From assembly GCF_025457605.1 (NCBI RefSeq), contig NZ_JAMZFY010000002.1:496001-560000 (forward strand): 64,000 nt of DNA. Direction: 5' to 3'. Position 1 is the first letter of the stretch; the number at the start of each line of letters is the position of its first letter. This document shows, one piece after another, positions 15,877 through 22,026 of this stretch. Below the pieces are notes generated by a model that worked only from the letters and a program-made list of their open reading frames with translations, ran no database searches and had not been told where the DNA came from. The stretch comes from Haloarcula laminariae (GTDB lineage Archaea; Halobacteriota; Halobacteria; Halobacteriales; Haloarculaceae). The position numbers and the translations under genes are program-made.

Positions 15877-15925
15877 GCCTCGCTGTCGCTCGGCGGTTCG
15901 CGTCGGTAGAAACGTCCGGACGGAG
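15877..15925. repeat. 49-bp direct repeat, outer copy (tRNA-Arg tail)
   Basis: Identical to 16075-16123, 198 bases away. The last 13 bases are the final bases of tRNA-Arg (cgtccggacggag in plus-strand sense) and the rest is the tRNA's 3' flank. The identity stops within the T arm: this copy continues ttccac, the tRNA continues atttgaac. Confidence 0.85.
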
Positions 15926-15977
15926 TTCCACACGAGCGAAGCGAGCGTGGAGCACGTCCGTACGTGCACGAAGTGAA

Positions 15978-15999
15978 CGTCCGAACGGAGATTTGAACC
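15978..15999. repeat. third copy of the tRNA-Arg 3' end
   Basis: This 22-base stretch matches the last 22 bases of tRNA-Arg at 16111-16132 with two differences: an a for g at the seventh base and the final base. It includes the T-loop part atttgaac, which the 49-bp outer copy lacks, so it is an independent copy. Confidence 0.7.
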
Positions 16000-16074
16000 G
16001 AGGCGAGAAATGCTCGCTTCGCTGCGCGGTCCTCGCGTGTTCACATATCCGCGCAGAGTTTCACCGACGCGGTT

Positions 16075-16123
16075 GCCTCGCTGTCGCTCGGCGGTTCGCG
16101 TCGGTAGAAACGTCCGGACGGAG
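16075..16123. repeat. 49-bp direct repeat, inner copy (joined to the intact tRNA-Arg)
   Basis: Exact match to 15877-15925. It overlaps the 3' end of the complete tRNA-Arg gene by 13 bases, so the repeat boundary is inside the T arm, where archaeal and bacterial integrases often recombine. Confidence 0.85.
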
Positions 16124-16183
16124 ATTTGAACTCCGGTCCCTGGCTCCGCAAGCCAAGAGGATAGTCCACTACCCTACCCGGAC
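16111..16183 (-). tRNA. tRNA-Arg (anticodon GCG)
   Basis: A complete cloverleaf on the minus strand. The 7-bp acceptor stem pairs GTCCGGG with TCCGGAC and ends with discriminator G. The anticodon arm TTGGC-TTGCGGA-GCCAG gives anticodon GCG, which reads CGC and CGU arginine codons. The T arm is CGGAG-TTCAAAT-CTCCG. CCA is not encoded. No intron is present at the usual position after base 37. The region downstream carries repeated copies of its 3' end. Confidence 0.9.
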
Positions 16184-21353: not shown

Positions 21354-21426
21354 GCCGCCGTAGCTCAGTTGGTAGAGCACCTGGTTGTTACCCAGGTTGT
21401 CCCAGGTTCGAGCCCTGGCGGTGGCG
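21354..21426 (+). tRNA. tRNA-Asn (anticodon GTT)
   Basis: A 73-base cloverleaf. Acceptor GCCGCCG pairs with CGGTGGC and is followed by discriminator G. The D arm is GCTC-AGTTGGTAGA-GC, the anticodon arm CCTGG-TTGTTAC-CCAGG gives GTT, and the T arm is CCAGG-TTCGAGC-CCTGG. No intron and no encoded CCA. Confidence 0.95.
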
Positions 21427-21597: not shown

Positions 21598-21672
21598 GGG
21601 CCCTTAGCTTAGTCTGGTTAAAGCGATCGGCTCATAACCGATTGAGCGCTGGTTCAAATCCGGCAGGGCCCA
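21598..21672 (+). tRNA. tRNA with anticodon CAT (probably Ile2, or elongator Met)
   Basis: A 75-base cloverleaf. Acceptor GGGCCCT pairs with AGGGCCC and discriminator A follows. The anticodon arm ATCGG-CTCATAA-CCGAT gives CAT; the T arm is GCTGG-TTCAAAT-CCGGC. It lacks the GGG:CCC anticodon stem pairs of initiators, so it is not tRNA-iMet. Elongator tRNA-Met genes in several haloarchaea carry an intron, and none is present here, which favours tRNA-Ile with agmatidine-modified C34. This is inference; identity elements alone do not settle it. Confidence 0.8.
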
Positions 21673-22026
21673 CTTACTGAACGTGCCATGCCGTATCCGG
21701 CAGGCGCCACAACAATATGTTCCGAGAGTCGTGACTAATCTGTTTGACGTGCTCGCTCTCAGCCGACCGTGAGTCATCTATCGTCCGAACGGAAAATTCG
21801 GGGCCGCCGCAACGCTCTGTTTTCGCACGGTGTCTTTACGAGTAGCGGCGGCTCGCTGTCTGAGTCGCTCTTCGTCACGCCAAACAGTATCGGTCTCTGG
21901 CCAAGTTTGATATAGCAGATAACGATATAACACCGCTCACAGCCGAACTGCGGATTCGACCGGAAACAGCTCCTTCACCTCTCCAATCGGCGAAATCCTT
22001 CAGTGGATGGCCAAAATACTGTTAGT
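21673..22026. other. 354-bp geneless, AT-richer stretch after the CAU tRNA
   Basis: No supported gene. It holds a 10-base echo of the tRNA 3' end (atccggcagg, 21695-21704), which is too short to call an attachment site, and an AT-rich motif gatatagcagataacgatataac at about 21909-21931 that resembles two other sites in the 22-27 kb region. The alpha/beta hydrolase promoter must lie at its right end, but no clear TATA box stands at the normal distance. Confidence 0.55.

Follow-up and report, generated by a model that had tools for sequence, protein, structure and literature searches.

The window, by which we mean the whole 64,000-nucleotide stretch of Haloarcula laminariae DNA analysed here, carries a tRNA-Arg(GCG) gene that ARAGORN and Rfam (RF00005) both end at 16111, as had been proposed in an earlier note made from the sequence alone. 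Because the gene is encoded on the minus strand, 16111 is its 3' end and all of the repeats lie downstream of it. The features of the locus, with the basis for each, are as follows.

16111..16183, minus strand: tRNA-Arg(GCG) gene, 3' end at 16111 (ARAGORN and Rfam RF00005)
16111..16131, minus strand: copied segment, tRNA positions 53-73, from the T-loop to the discriminator base (sharp identity boundaries in 65 copies from 3 genomes)
16059..16110, minus strand: unit 1, T-rich start and hairpin 1, 52 nt (RNA fold, z -5.9; covarying family)
16039..16050, minus strand: unit 1, inverted T-loop arm GGATATGTGAAC, complementary to the tail at 10/12 positions (direct reading; arm family-wide)
15999..16038, minus strand: unit 1, inner hairpin between the two arms (fold)
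15978..15998, minus strand: unit 1, copy of tRNA positions 53-73 with one change in 21 nt (sequence comparison)
15913..15977, minus strand: unit 2 ('A'), a 65-bp hairpin unit with a 13-nt tail copy (15913-15925) at its end (present in most Haloarcula loci)
15877..15912, minus strand: second copy of the hairpin-1 start, 36/36 identical to 16075-16110 (sequence comparison)
16075..16123, plus strand: 49-bp repeat, copy overlapping the tRNA (from the earlier note; exact match confirmed)
15877..15925, plus strand: 49-bp repeat, distal copy (from the earlier note; exact match confirmed)

The exact 49-bp repeat comprises 13 nt of tRNA tail and 36 nt of flank of the tRNA-Arg(GCG) gene. Its similarity reaches 57 nt at 95%, and 0/100 dinucleotide shuffles of the window produced a chance match to it with up to 3 mismatches allowed. 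The further 22-base tail copy with two changes reported at 15978-15999 was likewise recovered, matching the tRNA tail at 20/22 positions. The segment between the gene and this copy contains two hairpins (z -3.8 over 133 nt, z -5.9 over the first 52 nt) and an inverted T-loop arm, all of which the earlier note had overlooked. The 451-bp repeat region occurs at a single place in the whole genome and its 30-nt core at two places, both at the tRNA-Arg(GCG) locus (up to 3 mismatches); the block is thus not the scattered general intergenic repeat that the earlier note had said would count against its own reading. Up to E = 1, Rfam returned no match at the locus besides the tRNA, and no phage or plasmid record matching the repeat region was found. 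The other two tRNA genes in the window, tRNA-Asn (21354-21426) and tRNA-Met (21598-21673), have no copy of their own tail, and such units are therefore not obligatory.

The repeat unit and its match to the local tRNA

Comparable segments were gathered as 272 distinct units, with a median length of 124 bp, behind about 30 isoacceptors. In each, a T-rich hairpin comes directly after the tRNA tail; next are the inverted T-loop arm and the inner hairpin, and a repeat of tRNA positions 53-73 closes the unit. In 65 aligned copies from 3 genomes, identity to the tRNA is near 1 across these positions and falls sharply on both sides, from 0.94 at position 53 to 0.72 one base outside and then about 0.4, and from 0.92 at position 73 to 0.62 one base beyond. 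The inverted T-loop arm was present in 58/58 distinct units. A first count in the H. laminariae genome gave own-tail copies at 11/43 tRNAs, against 9/1806 cross matches; own-tail copies were found at 12/45 tRNAs in this genome and at 19/29 and 13/27 tRNAs in two genomes of other families.

Among the 272 units, 158 pairs have inner cores that are at least 90% identical and tRNA tails that differ at 4 or more positions. At the discriminating positions of these pairs, the right-hand copy agrees with its own tRNA 1960 times and with that of its partner 57 times, and the inverted left arm agrees with its own tRNA at 311 and with its partner's at 50 of 472 positions. Both arms hence match the local tRNA even where a near-identical inner core is found at different tRNAs. 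Either the core moves between tRNAs and has its arms formed anew from the target, or gene conversion maintains the right arm and hairpin repair or selection the left. Intragenomic homogenisation of the inner cores was not significant.

Hairpin-1 starts identical at 20 or more of 24 positions occur in 21% of units lying two apart, 12% of adjacent units and 0.8% of random pairs, and many arrays alternate hairpin types (L138, L139, L207, L221, L274, L279 and others). In G068, the tRNA-Lys(TTT) gene is followed by identical tandem units (4 x 111 bp). In the same genome, two tRNA-Asp genes about 100 bp apart lie inside an alternating-unit tail array (L196/L197, G068:C1:2843194-2843368), and the whole tRNA seems to have been duplicated together with the array. 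At two loci of G231 (L151, L153), tRNA-Lys(TTT) and tRNA-Lys(CTT) have an identical tail and are followed by the same hairpin-1 sequence, a pattern that would fit a transfer of units between such same-tailed loci.

Distribution of the units and variation of their arrays

A strict motif defined by the arm pair (T-loop sequence GGATTYGAAYC / GRTTCRAATCC) was detected in 259/292 Halobacteria genomes, covering 69/77 genera, with 0 matches to the reversed control, and in 0/242 genomes that belong to the phylum but not to Halobacteria. A sub-type motif matched 98 stretches in a named collection of 84,980 species, and 80/80 among the matches listed were haloarchaeal. Motif matches lie 3' of a tRNA in 30/31 cases of one set, nearly all of them sharing that tRNA's strand and carrying its tail. 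Of 81 matches in named genomes, 76 are accompanied by a tRNA, 67 of them by its own tail; for the remaining 5 no tRNA was within reach, 3 of these matches being within about 350 bases of a locus end. With the family located 3' of tRNAs in both sets and the H. laminariae core confined to two places, a dispersed MITE or general intergenic repeat was rejected. An assembly artefact was rejected because the arrays recur in many independent genomes. We found no description of this family in the open-licence literature, and it is apparently an undescribed, class-wide variant of tRNA-tail repeats.

Among viral contigs, 1/10 hairpin-motif matches (L124) is a unit of the same kind, 3' of a tRNA-Glu gene; the other 9/10 are tRNA genes or other palindromes, and a viral origin of the unit was not found. 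The IMG/VR viral contigs L126-L131 contain near-perfect palindromes with outer arms GGATTTGAAC...GTTCAAATCC that look like head-to-head tRNA tails and differ from the haloarchaeal unit.

Within Haloarcula in the broad sense, the tRNA-Arg(GCG) locus is present in 32/32 genomes. Of the 30 loci read in detail, 25 carry a downstream tail copy (at least 18/22 or at least 11/12 matching positions), and the same two kinds of unit vary in number and order. Arrays thus differ between species, and the most decayed copy is often the distal one. Between related species, complete units have been inserted or lost precisely at the tail of the tRNA. In G013 the tRNA is followed directly by the flank (an empty site), whereas in G030 a 196-bp block with a terminal tail copy lies between the tRNA and the same flank (a filled site). 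G031 and G027 are distinguished by a 65-bp difference that starts at the tRNA tail and has a tail copy at its end. In G003, G008, G023 and G029 a block of about 200 bp separates the tRNA from an older unit with a decayed tail, which is also found in G024 beside its shared flank.

Integrative elements and known repeats at tRNA genes

Integrated elements do occur at these tRNA tails. In one Haloarcula genome (G019), a 14.7-kb element lies exactly between tRNA-Arg(GCG) and the tail array, at positions 2580-17408 of L033 (G019:C2:56000-75500). It encodes a tyrosine integrase (PF00589, E 8e-19), a primase (Prim-Pol protein) and a type I restriction-modification system, and its far end is marked by a 47-bp att copy reaching from the tRNA anticodon arm to the 3' end. 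Given this element, tRNA-Arg(GCG) does serve as a site of integration, although the short repeats are something else. A second element, 10.4 kb long and also with a tyrosine integrase, lies in G187 between tRNA-Val(CAC) and a displaced tail copy (L300/L133, G187:C1:24651-64600, from the tRNA-Val to about position 9956 of L133). Its att is segment 53-73, present as a 20-nt copy; the element sits between the tRNA and a unit, has its integrase gene at the far end, by the att copy, and carries an Eco57I/MmeI-like methylase. In the window, where only 112 bp and 52 bp separate the tail copies, an integrated element of this kind was rejected.

Precise excision by an integrase leaves a single att copy, not tandem copies with spacers. 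The excision scar that the earlier note had read into the locus was rejected accordingly, since two downstream tail copies with their spacers persist where one would be expected. The same unit architecture, moreover, recurs behind dozens of different tRNAs in nearly all haloarchaea, and the att duplication of the G019 element is 47 bp long and starts in the anticodon arm, as opposed to 21 nt for the units. The scar interpretation is therefore wrong in detail and right in taking the tRNA tail for a working attachment site. The earlier note had also named repeats in all relatives, with an element in none, as telling against it: the first part is largely what the Haloarcula loci exhibit, and the second does not hold, given the element in one relative.

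The closest known thing to the haloarchaeal unit is the tyrT/rttR 178-bp repeat of Escherichia coli. In strain MG1655, tyrV is followed directly on its 3' side by three tail copies (19 nt, exact), which have a 178-bp period and share the strand of the tRNA; each repeat ends in the last 19 nt of tRNA-Tyr, and the repeats overlap the rttR RNA. The layout is common to both because each tyrT/tyrV unit also holds an inverted arm, GGGGAAGGAT, whose sequence complements the preceding tail copy: in both systems the units lie 3' of a tRNA on the same strand, with a copy of its own tail at the end and an inverted arm complementary to that copy within. The likeness is one of layout, inner cores having been compared by inspection. 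The tail copy is 19 nt long and includes CCA in E. coli, whereas it is 21 nt long without CCA in haloarchaea, and the E. coli unit overlaps a small ORF (tpr), with none evident in the haloarchaeal unit. Compared with the single E. coli locus examined, the haloarchaeal units, of other size and sequence, are widespread and tRNA-specific at many isoacceptors, lying behind roughly a quarter to two thirds of sampled tRNAs per genome in nearly all genera.

Tyrosine recombinases that use tRNA 3' ends, with the lengths of their att sites, are listed in a review of archaeal integrases (PMC8371274). The units share with such integrative elements a duplicated tRNA 3' segment, an intact tRNA on one side, empty and filled sites and, in the case of G187, the att segment 53-73 itself, but they have no integrase or genes, measure about 124 bp and carry arms matched to each tRNA. 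Integron cassette arrays (attI/attC) also consist of small tandem cassettes at a fixed site, with a terminal imperfect palindrome whose arms are core-site sequences. This is a resemblance only: the haloarchaeal units have no ORFs, their arms consist of tRNA T-loop sequence (GGATTYGAAYC / GRTTCRAATCC) and do not match the attC consensus core boxes, and no integron-type integrase was seen among the flanking genes scanned. The small mobile repeats and MITEs of haloarchaea described in Haloquadratum (PMC3119063) are equally short, palindromic and non-coding, but they are dispersed and unmatched to tRNA tails, whereas in H. laminariae the 30-nt core is found only at its own tRNA.

Origin of the tRNA-tail units

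We favour the interpretation, at a probability of about one half, that the repeats are a two-unit array of haloarchaeal tRNA-tail hairpin cassettes, non-autonomous and att-type, that move at tRNA tails. An integrase crossing over in the T-loop would need segment 53-73 to restore the tRNA, and this is also the segment used by the G187 element; the units are therefore favoured as cassettes. The 21-nt tail would be an attachment segment of the kind used by such integrases, and the units small, gene-less cassettes, with site-specific exchange at tRNA tails accounting for their entry, exit and reshuffling. On entry, the tRNA 3' end would stay intact and each unit would carry a right-hand att copy; arrays may also grow or shrink through ordinary recombination or slippage between tail copies. 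We infer the movement, the putative enzyme and the step that would copy the arms.

Counted in favour of cassettes are the exact 53-73 boundaries, the tRNA specificity, the class-wide distribution and 3' position, the empty and filled sites (G013/G030 and G031/G027), the species-variable arrays with their decayed distal copy, the use of the tail segment as att in G187, and the near-identical cores with locally matching arms. Counted against them is that no recombinase, circular form or strain-level movement of the units was seen. A double-stranded circle of 124 bp would, furthermore, be very small, and a tyrosine recombinase would require a unit tail already matching the target, yet the cores carry both local arms. 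Homologous recombination alone can yield precise loss between tail copies, and the perfect tandem units of G068 show that ordinary duplication occurs too.

The strong, partly covarying hairpins would also fit a functional RNA, the main rival to cassettes and a possibility that we rate as tentative. The unit would then correspond in archaea to the rtT RNA of E. coli, as a putative structured trailer RNA or an element that forms the 3' end, co-transcribed with the tRNA, freed by processing and kept by selection, with tail copies that arose by duplication and are held identical through gene conversion with the tRNA. Consistent with this, the hairpins are more stable than shuffles (median z -4.6 for H2), and the units lie on the tRNA strand. 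A gappy alignment of 51 sequences gave no consensus structure, and pairing was therefore examined by an alignment-free test, in which the T-arm stem and hairpin 1 paired better with their own partner than with the partners of other units, exceeding 5000/5000 permutations, and the inner stem did not exceed all 5000. At stem positions 55-64, G-U pairs on the sense strand show no clear excess over A-C (52 versus 91). The fraction of T is 0.49 after the tRNA and 0.48 after each copy, compared with 0.17 in the unit. In E. coli, rttR overlaps a tail repeat, and the rtT family is reported to be RNA that is set free from the tyrT transcript and affects the stringent response (PMC4986893). Against a trailer RNA, the tail copy is no less identical in its acceptor part, although that part is not included in the stem; many tRNAs, moreover, have no unit, and close species differ.

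A dedicated haloarchaeal DNA rearrangement system following an integron-like logic appears doubtful. In such a system, gene-less hairpin cassettes of about 124 bp would fold so that a double-stranded T-loop att site is rebuilt from their arms; they would be placed behind tRNA genes and acquire the sequence of both arms anew from the local tRNA. We know of no described system that copies target sequence into both arms of a hairpin cassette.

It is unlikely that the arrays are passive, functionless DNA lacking a dedicated recombinase, in which slippage and unequal crossing-over between tail copies would have multiplied an old hairpin repeat beside tRNAs. The identical tandem units of G068 and the alternating identical hairpin-1 starts within arrays fit such a process, and Haloquadratum has been reported to have partial tRNA duplications and deletions mediated by repeats, two of which occurred between partial copies of tRNAs, 22 and 43 bp long (PMC3119063). 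Passive multiplication does not account, however, for boundaries that fall exactly at 53-73 behind about 30 isoacceptors, for inverted arms that match the local tRNA or for the persistence of the units in 69/77 genera. The weakest reading, and a highly improbable one, is that a provirus or plasmid integrated and excised repeatedly at tRNA-Arg(GCG) and left these repeats behind, for although a real element is integrated at this tRNA in G019, its att copy differs from the 21-nt unit copy in length and start, precise excision leaves no duplication, the unit is repeated at many tRNAs across almost all haloarchaea, and phage and plasmid records gave no match.

Short tRNA-tail copies in haloarchaea should accordingly not be taken for provirus scars by default; real att duplications can be distinguished by an integrase-bearing element, often by their length, and by the absence of a hairpin unit. 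What has long been regarded as a peculiarity of a single E. coli tRNA operon is matched, in almost every haloarchaeal genus, by repeats behind many tRNA genes; the precise boundaries and tRNA-specific arms of these repeats make their origin and use testable by comparison and by genetics in tractable haloarchaea.
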